Of a DNA stretch of 64,000 bases, positions 3,500 to 9,861 are shown in pieces. The notes under the pieces were generated by a model, which saw nothing but the letters and a program-made list of their open reading frames with translations, was not told where the DNA came from and searched no databases. The position numbers and the translations under genes were made by a program. The number at the start of each line of letters is the position of its first letter. Position 1 is the first letter of the stretch. The stretch covers positions 62,001-126,000 of the forward strand of contig DAIDAG010000080.1 of assembly GCA_027310725.1 (NCBI GenBank), written 5' to 3'. The stretch comes from Sideroxydans sp. GTDB lineage: Bacteria; Pseudomonadota; Gammaproteobacteria; Burkholderiales; Gallionellaceae.

Positions 3500-3526
3500 T
3501 CTCCGCTGATCTGCATAGAGGTATTG

Positions 3527-4834
3527 ATGGCTGAGCAAAATAATTCCAACCCGATGTTCCAGGCGGCGCTGCGCAAACATCTCGATAGCGATCTGCAGGC
3601 AGCCGAGCACATGTATCGCGAAATCATCCTGGCCGACCCAGCCGACGCCCAGGCCAGGCACTATCTGGGATATCTGCTGCAACAGTCCGACCGATTGCAG
3701 GAAGCGTTCGAGCAACTGACGGCAGCCATTGCCATCGACAACCGCCATGCAGAATGGCATTTCAATCTGGGCATCGTGTTTTCAAGACTGGGAAAGGTCA
3801 CTGCGGCGATAGATGCTTTTACCAGAGCCATCGCGATTGATCCGGATAAATATTTCTACTGGACCAACCTGGGGGCTGCGTTCGAATCGGATCAGGAATG
3901 GGTTCGTGCCGAGCAATGCTACCAGGCTGCGATAAACATCGATCCGAACTGCCCGGATGCTTTCTACTTGCTGTCGGCCTTGTATCTGAAGCAGGAACGG
4001 TTCGAGGAGGCGCGGCATTGCAACTACCGCGGCATCGTGGCCGAACCGGCGGGCAGCAAACCGAAAATGGTATTGGGTCAGGCGCTATATGAATTGGGGC
4101 GGGTGGACGAAGCGATCTCGTTGTTTGAGAGCTGGCTGGCAGAGGAACCGGACAACCCGGTAGCGACGCATTTGCTGGCCGCGTACAGGGGGCAGCAAGT
4201 GCCCGCGCGATGCAGCGATCGGTATGTCGAACAGACGTTCGACGCCTTCGCGAACAGTTTCGAGAACGTTCTGGGCAGACTGAAATACTGCGGCCCGCAA
4301 TTGGTGCAGGATCACCTTGCCGAACTTGATCTGCCGGCTTCCAGCCTGAGCATCCTTGACCTGGGTTGCGGTACCGGCATGGTGGGTGAAGTAATGAAGC
4401 CCTACGCACGCGAGCTGGTGGGTGTCGATCTCAGCCAAGCCATGCTGGACCGGTCCGCTGCAAAGCAGGTGTACCGGCAACTGCACAAATCCGATATCGC
4501 CGAGTTCCTGCTGACGACTGGCGAGCATTACGATCTCATTACCTGCATGGACACGTTCGTCTATCTGGGGCGGCTGGATGAAATCCTTGCGCTGATCTAT
4601 GGGAAGCTGACGATAGGCGGGATGTTGCTCTTCAGTACCGAAAAACTGCACGGGGCTACGGGGGCGGACTATCGACTGAACATCAGCGGCAGATACAGCC
4701 ATCACCCCGGCTATCTGACAACCTTGCTGGGCAATGCCGGATTCAGGCTGCTGCGCATGACCGATGTCCCGATCAGGAACGAATCCGGTTGCCAGATCGA
4801 AGGCCAGTTCGTTTGCGCGAGCCGCATGGAATAA
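3527..4834 (+). CDS. TPR-repeat class I SAM-dependent methyltransferase
   Basis: 435 residues. The N-terminal half (about residues 10-200) is built of five or six tetratricopeptide repeats, with the pattern W-x-x-L-G-x(7)-Y/F visible in HFNLGIVFSRLG and WTNLGAAFESDQ. The C-terminal half is a Rossmann methyltransferase with motif I ILDLGCGTGMVGE (near 285) and motif II VGVDLSQAMLD. ATG 3527 is preceded by AGAGGT. Proteins of this layout are common in proteobacterial surface-polysaccharide or flagellin-modification loci, but this copy sits alone between DUF2252 and the anti-sigma gene, so its substrate is not predictable. It converges on the anti-sigma gene with a 9-base gap. Confidence 0.82.
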   Translation: MAEQNNSNPMFQAALRKHLDSDLQAAEHMYREIILADPADAQARHYLGYLLQQSDRLQEAFEQLTAAIAIDNRHAEWHFNLGIVFSRLGKVTAAIDAFTRAIAIDPDKYFYWTNLGAAFESDQEWVRAEQCYQAAINIDPNCPDAFYLLSALYLKQERFEEARHCNYRGIVAEPAGSKPKMVLGQALYELGRVDEAISLFESWLAEEPDNPVATHLLAAYRGQQVPARCSDRYVEQTFDAFANSFENVLGRLKYCGPQLVQDHLAELDLPASSLSILDLGCGTGMVGEVMKPYARELVGVDLSQAMLDRSAAKQVYRQLHKSDIAEFLLTTGEHYDLITCMDTFVYLGRLDEILALIYGKLTIGGMLLFSTEKLHGATGADYRLNISGRYSHHPGYLTTLLGNAGFRLLRMTDVPIRNESGCQIEGQFVCASRME

Positions 4835-4843
4835 CTCGGGAAG

Positions 4844-5602
4844 CTATACCTGCGCGCGCAACGCTCCGACAAATGATTCCAGTTCGTTCGTTGCCAGATC
4901 GGACACTGCCCAATATTCCATGCCGTCCTTTGTCCAGCGAATCAGGTGATAGCCCTGGTGCTCTTGAAGCCGCAAATCAGTTGCACCGGTCTTGCCCGGC
5001 CAGACATAGACATTGATCGGGTGCTGATTGTGCCGGTAGACCAGCACGGCCACGGTGCGGCCGTTGAGATAATCCAGCCGCCCTCCCACCAAAGGAAACC
5101 CGCTGGATGAAAGATCGAATACAGGCGGCGAAAAATCCAGCTTGCCATTGAACCACGGCTTTACCGTGTGCCTGTCGGATGAGACTACATCAGACAGGTG
5201 ATCGACCTGCAAAGAACGAACATGGCTGGAGATCAGTTCCTCGACCAACCTGTCCTGGCTCGAAGGCTGGTTCAGATACACGGCGCCACTCCAGGCCAAT
5301 GCCAGCACTGCCACCAGTACTGCACCCGCGTTCATCCAGTTCAGGTTCCACCCTATGGGGCTTGGGGTATCCGTGCGATGGCGCGGAAGGCTCATCGTGA
5401 TGCGTTGAGCGAGGTGATCGGGAGCGAAAAAATAGGGGGCATGTTTTTTGAGCCTTTCCCTCGTGGTGTTCAGCGTCGAGAATTCGCTTTGGCATGCGGA
5501 GCAACTGTCCAGGTGCTGTTCCAGCGCAAGCAGATCGGCGACGCCAAGCTCCTGGTCGAGATAGGCAGGCAGCAGTTCCATGAATTTCTGATGGTCCATC
5601 AT
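4844..5602 (-). CDS. Membrane anti-sigma factor with zinc-finger domain
   Basis: About 252 residues. The N-terminus carries the anti-sigma zinc-finger signature H-x3-C-x2-C (HLDSCSAC, near residue 34) of the zf-HC2/RsiW type that binds the ECF sigma factor. One transmembrane helix follows (GAVLVAVLALAWSGAVYL, near 100), and the C-terminal 140 residues should lie in the periplasm as a sensor domain. I prefer the ATG at 5602 because it overlaps the sigma stop codon as ATGA, giving translational coupling; ATG 5611 is an alternative. The sigma factor should be held at the membrane and released when the periplasmic domain perceives a signal. The signal is unknown. Confidence 0.85.
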   Translation of the reverse strand: MMDHQKFMELLPAYLDQELGVADLLALEQHLDSCSACQSEFSTLNTTRERLKKHAPYFFAPDHLAQRITMSLPRHRTDTPSPIGWNLNWMNAGAVLVAVLALAWSGAVYLNQPSSQDRLVEELISSHVRSLQVDHLSDVVSSDRHTVKPWFNGKLDFSPPVFDLSSSGFPLVGGRLDYLNGRTVAVLVYRHNQHPINVYVWPGKTGATDLRLQEHQGYHLIRWTKDGMEYWAVSDLATNELESFVGALRAQV

Positions 5603-6153
5603 GTATTCCATTTCTGTGATGCAAGGATTTCAGCCAACTGCTTGCGTCCCCGCCCCAGACGCGACATCACTGTGCCTATCGGTATTCCGGTGATCCCGGC
5701 GATCTGCTTGTATGACATGTCTTCCAGTTCACGCAAGACCATCACTTCGCGAAACTCCACCGATAATGTTTCCAGGGCCAGTTGCATCTGTCGCTGGCAA
5801 TCTTTCTGCATGAGCAGGGTCTCGGGGTTGTCGTCGTCATGATCTGCATTGCTGGAGTCGGTGTTCCCGATGCTGTGCAATTCTTCCTCGAACTGGGTGG
5901 TCTGGCCTTCAGCCCTGTTCTGCCGATACCAGGTGTAAAAAGTATTGCGCACTATACTCAGCAGCCATGCGCGCCCATCCTCGCCATGGAAGCCGTCAAA
6001 GAATTTATATGCGCGCAAATAGGCCTCCTGCACGATCTCTTCCGCATCCTGGTTGTTGCGCGCAAGCCAGCGCGCCAGATTGAAAGCCGAATCCAGATGC
6101 GGCAATACCATCGCCTGAAAACGTTTTTCTTTTGTTTTTATCGGGGAGTCCAT
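5599..6153 (-). CDS. ECF-type RNA polymerase sigma factor
   Basis: 184 residues, normal for an ECF sigma factor. Region 2 is seen in DAEEIVQEAYLRAYKFF and WLLSIVRNTFYTWYR (residues 36-80), including the core-binding and -10 recognition helices. Region 4 with its helix-turn-helix is seen in YKQIAGITGIPIGTVMSRL (about 148-166). The linker is acidic (DDDN). It is co-transcribed with the anti-sigma gene through a 4-base ATGA overlap. A promoter-like site, GGGAATA-N16-GGTATT, lies 26 to 54 bases upstream of its start, and the same pattern precedes the divergent neighbours, which suggests autoregulation and a local regulon. Confidence 0.92.
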   Translation of the reverse strand: MDSPIKTKEKRFQAMVLPHLDSAFNLARWLARNNQDAEEIVQEAYLRAYKFFDGFHGEDGRAWLLSIVRNTFYTWYRQNRAEGQTTQFEEELHSIGNTDSSNADHDDDNPETLLMQKDCQRQMQLALETLSVEFREVMVLRELEDMSYKQIAGITGIPIGTVMSRLGRGRKQLAEILASQKWNT

Positions 6154-6178
6154 CCTGCGATTCCGTATTCTCTATCGT

Positions 6179-6207
6179 AATACCGGTTATGGAAGGGCTT
6201 TATTCCC
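6179..6207 (-). promoter_or_regulatory. Putative ECF promoter of the sigma gene
   Basis: Read on the minus strand: GGGAATA (6207-6201), a 16-base spacer, then GGTATT (6184-6179). Identical spacing and near-identical boxes occur at 8017-8045 and 8087-8115. Transcription would begin near 6172, about 20 bases before the sigma ATG. Assignment to this sigma factor is inferred from the recurrence of the motif next to its gene. Confidence 0.6.
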
Positions 6208-6284
6208 GCCCATTACAGCTTGGAGCGCGATAATTTGCAAATACGGCAGGATGTCAGATCATTGGCCTCCCCGGATCGGATTGA

Positions 6285-6299
6285 GCATCGGATCGATGC
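6285..6299. terminator. Short hairpin 3' of yceI
   Basis: GCATCG and CGATGC form a 6-base stem around a GAT loop, 44 bases beyond the yceI stop. There is no T-run, so a role as terminator or mRNA end is tentative. The rest of 6208-6342 shows nothing else I can name, apart from a distant 8-base inverted repeat (GATTGAGC/GCTCAATC). Confidence 0.25.
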
Positions 6300-6342
6300 G
6301 TCCTAAATCGGCGACGAAACAGCGCTGGTTGCTCAATCGCCG

Positions 6343-6936
6343 TCACTTTCGATAGGTGGACGGAGATACGGACGCATCGATGCGAGGGTTTTCCTGCAAG
6401 ATATGGAACCGGATCTGGACGGCGTCGTCCAGCGTCGAGGTGTCTGCCCACTCACCCTGTCCCACTTTGATCGATGTTCGCGAGACAGTGAATGAGCCAT
6501 CGAACCAGCGGCCTTGAGGAGTGGCAGTCGTGACGAAAGCGACCGGCACGGCGACGGTATGACCCTTGAGCGTAAAGGCGCCCTTGGCGATGTAGTGCCC
6601 CGCGTCCTTGACATGAAATTCGGAAGCCTCGAAGGTCGCTTGGGGGAAGGTATTGGCATCGAAGAAATCCGCGCTCCTGATCAAATCGTTCGCGGCTGGA
6701 GTGCCAGTGTTGACAGAGCGAACATCGACGCTGACCAGAACCATCCCGACGTCCGGTCGCGCGGGATCGAATTTCACGTTCGCCACAAAATCATTGAACG
6801 TGCCCTGCAGCGCGACTCCCTCTTGCGAGGCCAAGAATCTGATTTCACTCAGCGGTGCGGCAGCGCCGGCGCTAAGGGCCGCGGCGCCCAGCATGACGAC
6901 TGCTGCCTGGGACAGAATTCGCAGTGAACTCTTCAT
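6343..6936 (-). CDS. YceI family periplasmic lipid-binding-like protein
   Basis: 197 residues with a Sec signal peptide (MKSSLRILSQAAVVMLGAAALSAGAAA, cleavage near AAA-PLSE). The mature part shows the YceI lipocalin-like beta-barrel pattern: SVDVRSVNTG, DFFDANTFPQATFEA, and a KGAFTLKGHT segment (in E. coli YceI the equivalent is TGDLTIRGVT). The family binds polyprenoid or other lipids in the periplasm. The ATG at 6936 is fixed by an AAGGAGA ribosome binding site 7 bases upstream. It lies downstream of the metallophosphoesterase gene on the same strand (95-base gap), so both are probably read from the promoter at 8017-8045 and belong to the ECF regulon. Confidence 0.85.
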   Translation of the reverse strand: MKSSLRILSQAAVVMLGAAALSAGAAAPLSEIRFLASQEGVALQGTFNDFVANVKFDPARPDVGMVLVSVDVRSVNTGTPAANDLIRSADFFDANTFPQATFEASEFHVKDAGHYIAKGAFTLKGHTVAVPVAFVTTATPQGRWFDGSFTVSRTSIKVGQGEWADTSTLDDAVQIRFHILQENPRIDASVSPSTYRK

Positions 6937-7031
6937 GTTATCGATCTCCTTTTCTGAACTCTCTTGCCTGACGGGAAACGCGCACACATTTCCGCCGCAG
7001 TTCCTGTCAGCGTGACGGCAAAGCCGAATAC

Positions 7032-7937
7032 TCAGCCGACGGGGTGCTCGCGTTCCTCGATCGAACGTGCACTGCCCCTGGCTTCGATCTCGCGCCAGCC
7101 GAGTCCGCGATAAGGCTGTGCGGTGTCCCACGGCAAGGGAAGGTGGTCGGGCCCGGATCCGGGTGCCGGCAGGGGAAATATCAGCGATCTCGCCGCGTAA
7201 TGCGGGATGTGTCCCGTCATGTGCTGATTCTCCTGGTGGATATGCCCGTAAAAGACGGTGACGCGCGGATAGGCCTGCAATACTTCCAGTGCCTTCGCAC
7301 CGTCGCGGGTCGCCCACCCCCATTGCGGCTGCAGGTCGAACAACGGGCGATGAGTCAGCACCACGATGGGAACATCCTTTGATCGCGCATCCAGGTCCTT
7401 TTCCAGCCAGGAGATCTGTTCGTCTCCCAATGATCCTGTCGGGTCTGAGACGTTATCCAGCGCAACGAAATGGACGCCCTTGTGATCGAAGGAATAATGG
7501 GTCGCTCCGAAAAATTCCCGGAAAGCATCGCCGCGATCGGCTGACGCGTCGTGCTCACCCGGCAGGAAACGGATATTGCGGACACGGAGTGCGCCGACCT
7601 GTTCGCGGAATTCCGCCATGCGTTCGCGGCGTACCTTGGTGTCGAGTGTGAGTTGTGTCAGGTCTCCGGTGAAGACGATGAAATCCGGATCGACCGGCAG
7701 CGCATTCACCGCAGCGATCGCCTTGGGCAACGTGCCGCGCGCGTCGGGATTGGCCGGACCGCTGTAACCCCAATGCGTGTCGGACAACTGCACAAAGAAG
7801 AAATCCGATTCGGCAGACTTGCCCGCGCCCGTTGAGGAGCAGGCTGCCAACCCGATACCCGATGCATAGATGGCCCCGCCGTAACATGCCAGTTGAAGGA
7901 ACTTCCTTCTGTCCATATCTGTTTCATTCGTGTTCAT
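7032..7937 (-). CDS. Tat-exported calcineurin-like metallophosphoesterase
   Basis: 301 residues. A twin-arginine signal (DRRKFLQLACYGG) leads into a hydrophobic stretch ending at LAACSS, which also looks like a lipobox, so a Tat lipoprotein is possible. The calcineurin-like metal motifs are in order: SDTHWG, VFTGDLTQ, a GEHD in place of the usual GNHD, LTHRPLF and YGHIHQ. The change Asn to Glu in GEHD is notable because that Asn normally donates a metal ligand. Start ATG 7937 has a clear GGAGG 7 bases upstream. Such proteins hydrolyse phosphomono- or diesters or nucleotides; the substrate here is unknown. It is first in a likely operon with yceI. Confidence 0.85.
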   Translation of the reverse strand: MNTNETDMDRRKFLQLACYGGAIYASGIGLAACSSTGAGKSAESDFFFVQLSDTHWGYSGPANPDARGTLPKAIAAVNALPVDPDFIVFTGDLTQLTLDTKVRRERMAEFREQVGALRVRNIRFLPGEHDASADRGDAFREFFGATHYSFDHKGVHFVALDNVSDPTGSLGDEQISWLEKDLDARSKDVPIVVLTHRPLFDLQPQWGWATRDGAKALEVLQAYPRVTVFYGHIHQENQHMTGHIPHYAARSLIFPLPAPGSGPDHLPLPWDTAQPYRGLGWREIEARGSARSIEEREHPVG

Positions 7938-8016
7938 GGTTGCCTCCAATTGGAATTAATCGGCATATGCACTCCCGCTTGGACGATGTCGGCATCGCGC
8001 CATACGCCATACCTGC

Positions 8017-8045
8017 AATACCATTGCGGAGAATGAGTTATTCCC
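8017..8045 (-). promoter_or_regulatory. Putative ECF promoter of the phosphoesterase-yceI operon
   Basis: Minus-strand GGGAATA (8045-8039), 16-base spacer, GGTATT (8022-8017): both boxes and the spacing are identical to the site before the sigma gene. Transcription would start near 8010, leaving a leader of about 73 bases before the phosphoesterase ATG at 7937. Confidence 0.6.
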
Positions 8046-8086
8046 CAAAACGGTCAGCCCCTGCGGGAAATATTTTTCTCCGGAGC

Positions 8087-8115
8087 GGGAATATTCCCGA
8101 GCCTTCCGCGGTAAG
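8087..8115 (+). promoter_or_regulatory. Putative ECF promoter toward the HiPIP gene
   Basis: Plus-strand GGGAATA (8087-8093), 16-base spacer, GGTAAG (8110-8115). The -35-like box sits in a perfect 14-base palindrome, CGGGAATATTCCCG (8086-8099), so the box also reads on the minus strand. The -10-like box is a weaker match than in the two sister sites, and the leader to the HiPIP ATG would be about 215 bases. Together with 8017-8045 this accounts for the main content of the gene-free stretch 7938-8337; no small gene is evident there. Confidence 0.45.
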
Positions 8116-8337
8116 CAGTCCGGATTGGCGGATATGGAAAGCCTGGTATCCGAGCAGGGTCATCAAGAGATGGCGAAAGCGGATGCCCGTCCCGCATTGT
8201 GAAATGCCCGTATTGTCAGAGTTACTTTCGAGGCGAGTCGATATTGGTGCAAAATGGCAAGCGTCAATTTCAGCGAAGAAGTCATGAAATGTCAGCCAGG
8301 CCAAATCACGCGGCGCAACCAACCGACTGGAAACAAC

Positions 8338-8619
8338 ATGGACACTAACCTGACGCGCCGAAAATTCCTGAAGTCAGCCGGCCTGACTTTTGTTCTGGTG
8401 CCGCTTGTTGTTTTCAATCGTCAAGCTGCCGCGAACACCAATTCCAATGTGCGCGCCCAATTGAAATACCAGAATTTCCCCAAAGACAACATGAACTGCA
8501 CGACTTGCCTGGAATTCATCCCGGGAAAGACAGACAAGGATATGGGCCGGTGCAAGGTGATTCCGGAAGACGATGAAATATCACCCGATGGCTACTGCAC
8601 GAAATGGAACACCATGTGA
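8338..8619 (+). CDS. High-potential iron-sulfur protein (HiPIP), Tat-exported
   Basis: 93 residues. A twin-arginine signal (TRRKFLKSAGLTF) precedes a small mature domain of about 63 residues with the HiPIP cysteine pattern C-x2-C-x14-C-x13-C (CTTC, GRC, GYC) and a final aromatic-rich CTKWNTM. HiPIPs carry one [4Fe-4S] cluster at high potential and shuttle electrons in the periplasm; relatives are proposed electron carriers in iron oxidation and photosynthesis. ATG 8338 follows GGAAAC; an in-frame ATG at 8284 is possible but would put extra residues before the Tat motif. Its divergent placement next to the ECF regulon suggests stress-responsive expression. Confidence 0.85.
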   Translation: MDTNLTRRKFLKSAGLTFVLVPLVVFNRQAAANTNSNVRAQLKYQNFPKDNMNCTTCLEFIPGKTDKDMGRCKVIPEDDEISPDGYCTKWNTM

Positions 8620-8829
8620 ATGGGCGTTCGCTTGGCGGCATGCTCAAGTCAATATAAAACGCAATTTCCCTCCAGAGTGACCGAACATTTGCAGCGATTA
8701 CTTTGGCAGGGGTACTTCCTGACTTTCACGGCGGCTATGGAAGGGCCGAACTTGAATTTGCCGTGACCTGATGTCCGCAATGGACTGAACAAGTTGAACC
8801 ACGCAGCTCAAATAACAAGAGGAGATATC

Positions 8830-9861
8830 ATGATCACACGACGCACGTTCCTGACCGCAACGACTGCAGTTACCGCCGGAGTTGCAATGGGAATCACCGG
8901 GCAAGCCGATGCCGGGCAAGAATCGCACATGAAGAAATTTTCCGGGCCGCACGAGATGCCGAAAGGCCTCACTTTGTTGTCGATCGCCAATGCCGACGGT
9001 ACCGAGACGCTGGGCATCAAGACCGCCAGCGCCGTTATCGATGTACGGAAGGCATCTCATCTGCTCGGCATTCCGGCGCCGATGACGATGGAGGAACTGC
9101 TGCGAGAAGGGAATGCCGCAGGCCTCACCAGGATCGCTGCCGGCAGCGGCAATGCCAAGATCAAGCCGGCCCTGCTCGACGAGGCCAATATCACCCATGG
9201 ACGACTTTTCAGCAACCCCGGAAAGATCGTTTGCGTCGGCCTCAATTACAAACGCCATGCGAAGGAGATCGGCATGCAGGAGCCACGGGTGCCCCCGCTG
9301 TTCAACAAGTTCAACAATGCACTGGCCGCCCACAATTGCACCATCGACTTGCCCCCCAGGGACATTTCCTACAAATTCGATTATGAGACGGAGATGCTGA
9401 TCGTTATCGGCAAGTCGGCTCGCAATGTTCCGGAAGCCGACGCCTTGAACTACGTCGCCGGGTATTGCACCGCAAACGATTTTTCCGCACGCGATCTGCA
9501 GTTGGAGCTGCCGAGCAGCCAATGGATGATAGGCAAGACGCTCGACAAGTTTGCACCGATAGGACCCTATTTCGTTTCGGCCGATCTGGTGGGGGACCCG
9601 AACAACCTGAAGCTGGAAACGCGCGTCAACGGCGAGGTGCGCCAATCGTGGAACACCAATGACTTCATCTTCAATACCCAACAGATGATCGCCTACATTT
9701 CCAAACATTGGACGCTGGAACCGGGTGACATCATCTTTACCGGCACACCGCATGGCGTGATCCTGGGTTATCCAAAGGACAAGCAGGTCTGGCTCAAGGC
9801 CGGCGACGAGATCGTCAGCTCGATCGAGAAGCTGGGTGAACTGAAGTTCAAGCTTGCATAA
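8830..9861 (+). CDS. Fumarylacetoacetate hydrolase (FAH) family protein with Tat signal
   Basis: 343 residues. The C-terminal two thirds is a clear FAH-fold domain: KIVCVGLNYKRHAKEIG, the metal-binding acidic pair in FDYETEM, NDFSARDLQ, and GDIIFTGTPHGV. These enzymes cleave or isomerise beta-diketo acids with a divalent metal. The unusual part is the N-terminus: TRRTFLTATTAVTAGVAMG is a twin-arginine signal, so this enzyme should act in the periplasm, whereas most FAH proteins are cytoplasmic. ATG 8830 is preceded by GAGGAGA. A hairpin follows the stop. It may be co-transcribed with the HiPIP gene (210-base gap), which shares the Tat route. Confidence 0.85.
   Translation: MITRRTFLTATTAVTAGVAMGITGQADAGQESHMKKFSGPHEMPKGLTLLSIANADGTETLGIKTASAVIDVRKASHLLGIPAPMTMEELLREGNAAGLTRIAAGSGNAKIKPALLDEANITHGRLFSNPGKIVCVGLNYKRHAKEIGMQEPRVPPLFNKFNNALAAHNCTIDLPPRDISYKFDYETEMLIVIGKSARNVPEADALNYVAGYCTANDFSARDLQLELPSSQWMIGKTLDKFAPIGPYFVSADLVGDPNNLKLETRVNGEVRQSWNTNDFIFNTQQMIAYISKHWTLEPGDIIFTGTPHGVILGYPKDKQVWLKAGDEIVSSIEKLGELKFKLA

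Follow-up and report, generated by a model that had tools for sequence, protein, structure and literature searches.

Extracytoplasmic function (ECF) sigma factors of group ECF26 are reported to read promoters with a −35 element GGAATA and a −10 element GT (PMC6180224). In S. meliloti, the published description has the ECF26 factor RpoE4 driving a sulfite dehydrogenase together with a cytochrome c and a pseudoazurin (PMC3511301, PMC6180224). The −10 element of S. meliloti ECF26 is given as CGTC, and ECF genes are described adjoining the genes of sulfite-oxidizing enzymes in other alpha- and beta-Proteobacteria (PMC6527743). Here we analyze a 64,000-nucleotide stretch of a Sideroxydans sp. genome (contig DAIDAG010000080.1, positions 62,001 to 126,000; hereafter the window), in which genes for an ECF sigma factor, an anti-sigma factor, a metallophosphoesterase (MPE), and a HiPIP lie close to three copies of one promoter motif. 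The sites in the window and at orthologous loci follow the ECF26 pattern in −35 GGAATA, −10 GT, and spacing, as that pattern is outlined in the published account (PMC6180224). Read from sequence, the conserved core consists of the sigma factor, the anti-sigma factor, an MPE predicted to be exported by the twin-arginine translocation (Tat) pathway, and an exported one-electron carrier. This core is narrower than first proposed: the original prediction placed four exported families (YceI, MPE, HiPIP, and a FAH-fold protein) under one sigma factor.

Promoter sites and conservation of the sigma locus

The core genes and predicted promoters of the window are the following.

4844-5611, minus strand: anti-sigma factor gene, 255 amino acids (Pfam zf-HC2); its start overlaps the sigma stop.
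5599-6153, minus strand: ECF sigma factor gene, 184 amino acids (Pfam Sigma70_r2 and r4_2).
6179-6207, minus strand: predicted sigma promoter (autoregulation), −35 GGGAATA, −10 GGTATT.
7032-7937, minus strand: predicted Tat-exported MPE of the GEHD subfamily, 301 amino acids; a lipobox-like LAAC closes the signal (by eye).
8017-8045, minus strand: predicted promoter of the phosphoesterase-yceI unit, −35 GGGAATA, −10 GGTATT.
8087-8115, plus strand: predicted HiPIP promoter, −35 GGGAATA, −10 GGTAAG, from the motif search only.
8338-8619, plus strand: HiPIP-like protein with a Tat-like signal, putative electron carrier of the locus (Pfam HIPIP 24.7 bits, cut-off 22).

A pattern search of the window for GGGAATA-N(14-18)-GGTA returns exactly three matches, at 6181-6207 (minus strand), 8019-8045 (minus strand), and 8087-8113 (plus strand), and every spacer is 16 bases long; 100 shuffles of the window give a mean of 0.04 matches and a maximum of 1. 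Three sites within 2 kb, all pointing at gene starts, are beyond chance expectation. The same three N16 sites had been named in the original prediction, with coordinates that merely add two bases. By hand count, the predicted 5′ leaders are ~19 bases for the sigma gene, ~73 for the phosphoesterase gene, and ~216 for the HiPIP gene, whose start as used here (8338) comes ~215 bases after the predicted start of transcription. The −35 element of the HiPIP site lies within a 12-base palindrome, GGGAATATTCCC (8087-8098), and the other two sites are non-palindromic. Predicted sigma-70 promoters and terminators are no more numerous in the searched sequence than in shuffles.

The own genome as searched comprises 3.03 Mb in 80 contigs and is ~65% complete. 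The strict N16 motif occurs there only in the three window copies, compared with one match of the mirrored control. Spacers of 15-17 bases give five sites, compared with two for the mirrored control; the two additional sites (L004 and L005) have spacers of 15 and 17. A single stray hit in the genome is at chance level, because the mirrored control also matches. A wider regulon in the own genome, for which these two further hits were the candidates, was rejected: both differ in spacer length, and L004, the one of the two that was read, lies within an apparent transporter coding sequence (by eye).

The motif recurs at orthologous loci. We compared 96 other sigma loci, made up of the best 80 of 570 confirmed ones and 16 from genomes of the order (the two sets may overlap), and counted gene matches by tblastn at E below 1e-4. 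GGGAATA-N16-nGT stands within 350 bases upstream of the sigma gene at 51/96 loci and upstream of the phosphoesterase gene at 29/54 (window included); the mirror pattern is found at 0/96 and 0/54. A looser form of the motif raises these counts to 68/96 and 39/54, again with no mirror match in either set. The sites frequently stand back to back between divergent sigma and phosphoesterase genes, an arrangement of the two genes seen at 36 of the 54 loci; 16 of the 54, including the window, have both genes on the same strand. In 10 whole genomes, taken from 12 with both genes, 12 of the 14 strict sites are at the sigma-MPE locus, indicating that in most of these genomes the strict regulon is confined to a single locus. 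The off-locus sites are one in G099 and one in G023, G103 has no strict site, and mirror patterns number three in all. The claim of a sigma regulon with a shared promoter is thus supported by the orthologue counts: the motif is conserved with no mirror match, and it is not equally common at random genome positions. Taken together, the sequence comparisons give good support to an ECF sigma/anti-sigma pair that regulates itself and has a regulon of mostly one locus.

The gene content is conserved in part. The anti-sigma factor, whose N-terminus is a zinc finger (Pfam zf-HC2) and which by eye crosses the membrane once and has an outer domain, has a match at 92/96 sigma loci. An MPE is found at 53/96 by tblastn, and the family profile finds the same 53. 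The sigma factor has matches in 17/150 genomes of the order (own genome included) and no match in the three sampled genomes from its own genus or family. These 150 genomes contain 12 strong MPE matches (E below 1e-100), all of them within the 17 sigma-bearing genomes; the match in G131 is interrupted by an in-frame stop. In the window, all six genes (ECF sigma, zf-HC2 anti-sigma, YceI, metallophosphoesterase, HiPIP, and FAA_hydrolase) pass the Pfam cut-offs, in agreement with the identities assigned earlier.

The best NCBIfam model for the window sigma factor is PRK12533, with 234.8 bits over residues 7-180, below the cut-off of 248. RpoE6, the only ECF26 sigma factor compared and one located via adjoining published promoter fragments, is 32% identical to it. 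The best model for RpoE6 is PRK12511, and PRK12533 gives it just 102 bits; the A1 profile gives 84 bits for RpoE6 and 99 and 72 bits for two pSymB matches. The kind of regulator is known; its promoter resembles that of ECF26, and its protein is nearest to PRK12533. The promoter fit alone did not lead us to place the sigma factor in ECF26.

The metallophosphoesterase and its electron carriers

Gene order points to a general rule that the original prediction did not notice, namely that the MPE is paired with an electron carrier. A cupredoxin, cytochrome c, or HiPIP gene stands on the same strand within 600 bp of the MPE gene, measured between tblastn match edges, at 50 of the 53 MPE loci. Two kinds of cupredoxin, cytochrome c, and HiPIP occur; a cupredoxin is usual and a cytochrome c is found sometimes. 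Pfam confirms the assignments (Cupredoxin_1/COX2, Copper-bind, Cytochrom_C, and HIPIP; one representative per kind, two for cytochrome c).

The pairing is also seen in a sample collected through the MPE. A search with alignment A2 finds the MPE in 18/150 genomes of the order and 20/398 of the phylum, giving 35 distinct loci, own included. A carrier, counted on either strand within ~1.5 kb, is present in the flanks of 34/35 of these loci and of 0/31 other PF00149 phosphoesterases. A sigma gene of this kind is present in the flanks at 24/35 loci, and all 11 loci without it have a carrier, indicating that the MPE-carrier pairing is no by-product of the regulon. A more distant sigma gene would be missed, because the flank test spans ~1.5 kb; the six order genomes without a flanking sigma gene have no whole-genome sigma match at E below 1e-25.

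The carrier type follows the MPE tree, with 9 changes compared with 34.6 in shuffles (0/200 as low), and HiPIP as carrier requires two changes. The tree has 73 rows, from which short MPEs and several redundant loci are excluded, and two rows carry no carrier label. Nine rows make up a separate MPE clade that has a single cytochrome family as its partner; the S. meliloti member of this family gives a match to SoxA/TsdA. In G145, the MPE gene lies between a CCP_MauG gene, upstream, and the cytochrome gene, downstream.

Four of five annotated plasmids opened around the MPE show the carrier pattern. A cupredoxin gene precedes the phosphoesterase gene in a Streptomyces plasmid, and a cytochrome c peroxidase gene precedes it in a Methylocystis plasmid. 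In S. meliloti pSymA, the phosphoesterase gene is followed by a cytochrome annotated as hypothetical, with soxZ and soxY ~2 kb on. A Mycobacteroides plasmid has the order molybdopterin oxidoreductase, epimerase, ECF sigma, Rieske, cupredoxin, phosphoesterase; in this run (Mycobacteroides abscessus, L190, 512-5906), the ECF sigma factor is from another family, an Oxidored_molyb enzyme is present, and the start of the Rieske-domain protein is anti-sigma-like by eye. In two genomes without the sigma factor, a GEHD MPE lies near a multi-haem protein resembling, by eye, the cytochrome subunit of photosynthetic reaction centres (L165, 2636-6560; L167, 3357-7148). Between the gene of the multi-haem protein and the MPE gene, L165 has a HiPIP gene (51.6 bits, Pfam HIPIP). 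Among the papers listed by the literature searches, none describes the MPE-carrier pair in its title or in the opening of its abstract; the 2021 ECF reclassification may list the neighbourhood.

The predicted fold of the MPE is calcineurin-like, and the nearest solved folds are those of GpdQ, Rv0805, and purple acid phosphatases. To our knowledge, phosphoesterases of this fold are regarded as hydrolases that need no electron donors. The family carries GEHD at 35/35 loci of the MPE-based sample, where relatives have GNHD/E. Among the 54 MPE rows of the sigma loci, which include two short ones (L030 at a contig end, L115 with an in-frame stop), 50 have GEHD, 3 have GEND, and one ends before the motif. 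The nine control phosphoesterases with a readable motif (of 31) have GNHD (7), GNHE (1), and GTHI (1), and none has GEHD. The glutamate aligns with N97 of Rv0805, and the remaining metal-ligand positions are retained. A lipobox-like cysteine follows the Tat signal (LAAC or LAGC, by eye) in the window MPE and at L034, L055, L093, L115, and L118; from their sequences, some MPEs may be Tat-exported lipoproteins. A defence system was also considered and rejected, as the phosphoesterase, HiPIP, FAH-fold, and YceI proteins have no PADLOC match.

HiPIP, YceI, and the FAH-fold protein in the window

By eye, the translation of the HiPIP, which appears to fill the carrier role at the window locus, contains RRKF and four cysteines. 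The sole HiPIP homologue at the 96 other sigma loci is that of Methylotenera (L063), where it directly follows the phosphoesterase gene, a placement to be kept in mind when reading the predicted HiPIP promoter. HiPIP as a general partner was rejected, with matches in just 3/274 genomes of the class, own included (E below 1e-8). At the HiPIP loci L120 and L121, the remaining window proteins and the seed proteins find no match; L121 (1026-1761, genome G296) holds two tandem HiPIP-like genes, both with Tat-like signals by eye.

The two remaining genes of the locus are the following.

6343-6936, minus strand: YceI-family protein (Pfam YceI), 95 bp after the phosphoesterase gene, with a good ribosome-binding site by eye.
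8830-9861, plus strand: FAH-fold protein with a Tat-like signal (Pfam FAA_hydrolase), 210 bp after the HiPIP gene, without a site of its own.

YceI and FAH as conserved members were rejected, since neither has a homologue at the 96 other sigma loci. YceI, a lipid-binding family, has matches in 11/274 genomes of the class, own included (E below 1e-20), with at most 36% identity besides its own copy; the FAH-fold protein has a match in 1/274, which is itself (E below 1e-90). Both counts concern genes. yceI is probably in the phosphoesterase operon and is plausibly a local addition. The FAH gene may be read through from the HiPIP gene, as no terminator-like site is found in the 210-base gap between them; nothing else ties it in, and its membership in the regulon is doubtful. 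The proposal of four families under one sigma factor holds for the sigma-MPE and MPE-carrier links, which are conserved, and fails for YceI and FAH, found at 0/96 loci; FAH in particular has neither a promoter site of its own nor conservation. That all four proteins are extracytoplasmic, as also proposed, agrees with their sequences, all of which look exported.

A plus-strand gene at 3524-4834 encodes a TPR repeat and methyltransferase-like protein (by eye) and ends just short of the anti-sigma gene. Residues 270-379 of its product have a weak PADLOC match to mads_2 (2.5e-11).

Interpretation and comparison with known systems

We favor, with moderate confidence, a redox response of the envelope: the MPE would either exchange electrons with its carrier or depend on it to stay active. 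An envelope signal would release the sigma factor from the membrane-bound anti-sigma factor, and the freed sigma factor would read GGGAATA-N16-nGT promoters. It would raise its own operon, the Tat-exported MPE (with YceI here), and the exported HiPIP. The conserved working unit would be the MPE and a one-electron carrier, acting on each other outside the cytoplasm, with the carrier moving electrons to or from the two-metal site of the MPE or holding the site in its active redox state.

Several observations weigh against the redox response. Gene pairing is no proof of electron exchange, and the modeled fold of the MPE is that of hydrolases. About half of the orthologues lack the strict motif upstream, 43/96 sigma loci have no MPE match, and 5 of the 17 sigma-bearing order genomes (G010, G048, G092, G132, and G144) have no strong one. 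Five of the 43 MPE-less loci (L044, L052, L064, L076, and L082) have a cupredoxin near the sigma gene. (It is of the same kind as at MPE loci and lies ~1.2 kb or less from the sigma gene.) In the window itself, the HiPIP gene is divergent from the MPE gene, and YceI occupies the usual place of the carrier. The carrier is missed at three of the 53 MPE loci, namely L030 (contig end), L031 (nothing recognized), and L069 (a CxxCH protein by eye), and at L182 of the MPE-based sample, where a TPR protein follows the MPE (by eye). The B. vietnamiensis plasmid (L189) has no carrier adjoining the MPE by annotation and seed search. The 31 control phosphoesterases come mostly from the genus and order of the window and not from the genomes of the 35 loci, so that differences in genome content could contribute to the contrast between 34/35 and 0/31. 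The carrier seeds were drawn from these loci, with self-hits at L148, L155, L158, and L163; the carriers at L148, L155, and L158 are also matched by other seeds. Finally, the count of carrier changes comes from a rapid tree that places long branches together.

The MPE could instead be a plain phosphodiesterase or phosphatase of the periplasm whose two-metal site is sensitive to redox state, the carrier merely keeping the metal reduced, which would make it a repairable hydrolase under oxidant stress; we consider this somewhat unlikely. The phosphodiesterases GpdQ and Rv0805 and the purple acid phosphatases are the nearest solved folds to the model, and the other metal-ligand positions are kept, both in accordance with a hydrolase, but such an enzyme gives no reason for the change of asparagine to glutamate at all 35 loci. 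We think it improbable that the phosphoesterase, carrier, YceI, and FAH proteins are independent envelope-stress proteins that are merely co-regulated by one sigma factor, as in the original prediction. Apparent export of all four, the exchangeable carrier type, and the occurrence of YceI relatives elsewhere fit that view. However, each of the 11 MPE loci (of 35) that lack a flanking sigma gene still has the pairing, and the carrier type tracks the MPE phylogeny.

A sulfur-oxidation module also appears unlikely. Here the substrate of the MPE would be a reduced sulfur compound (sulfite, thiosulfate, or an organic thiosulfonate), the electrons would go to the carrier, and the sigma factor would answer sulfite, as RpoE1 and RpoE4 are described as doing. 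SoxB, an enzyme of the same fold class as the MPE, acts on such compounds; it is absent from the PDB fold matches listed for the MPE, which excludes nothing. The sigma-less MPE clade pairs with a cytochrome, its S. meliloti member matching SoxA/TsdA ~2 kb from soxYZ, and the Mycobacteroides gene run includes the Oxidored_molyb enzyme. In addition, RpoE4, an ECF26 factor with a GGAATA −35 element, is described as controlling the sulfite dehydrogenase, cytochrome c, and pseudoazurin of S. meliloti (PMC3511301, PMC6180224). However, the window has no sulfur gene among the six genes of the locus (Pfam), and the best NCBIfam model of its sigma factor differs from that of RpoE6. We retain sulfur chemistry as a lead to the area of substrate or signal.

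A more general proposal is tentative and somewhat unlikely. Rather than ordinary phosphoesterases, GEHD proteins may be widespread exported two-metal redox enzymes that use a calcineurin-like fold and have a partner of their own, be it a cupredoxin, a cytochrome c, or a HiPIP; glutamate in place of asparagine would adapt the metal site to electron transfer, and in the two larger clades an ECF sigma factor would activate the pair. The pairing is seen in records titled Proteobacteria, Acidobacteria, Verrucomicrobia, Gemmatimonadetes, Planctomycetes, and Actinomycetes, and its presence across distant bacteria hints at undescribed electron-transfer chemistry in the MPE family. A carrier kept adjacent, its type swapped, and a residue of the metal motif exchanged would point to unrecognized redox chemistry. 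The ECF sigma group also gains testable targets, with neighbours that are annotated merely as metallophosphoesterase, cupredoxin, cytochrome, or hypothetical in the annotated records examined.

Among described families, PRK12533 (NF009185) is the best model for the window sigma factor and three tested orthologues, and all four score below its 248-bit cut-off. The window sigma factor is a near relative of PRK12533 outside the curated family, for which the consulted part of the model entry names no target genes. The window HiPIP has the Pfam domain (PF01355), Tat-like signal, and four cysteines in common with the HiPIP family. The usual settings of HiPIPs are photosynthesis or iron oxidation, whereas here the gene is under an ECF-type predicted promoter beside a phosphoesterase. 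The MPE shares the calcineurin-like fold with the GpdQ/Rv0805 class according to the model; that class has GNHD, whereas the MPE family has GEHD, a Tat signal, and an adjoining carrier gene. With the S. meliloti ECF26 regulon (RpoE1/RpoE4: sorT, cytochrome c, and azu2), as it is described, the locus shares a sigma gene beside a membrane anti-sigma gene, a small regulon, and an exported enzyme with one-electron carriers, there a cytochrome c and a blue copper protein (PMC3511301). The two differ in the −10 element, which is CGTC in S. meliloti and GGTA in the window (PMC6527743), and in the enzyme, which is a sulfite dehydrogenase in S. meliloti and an MPE here.

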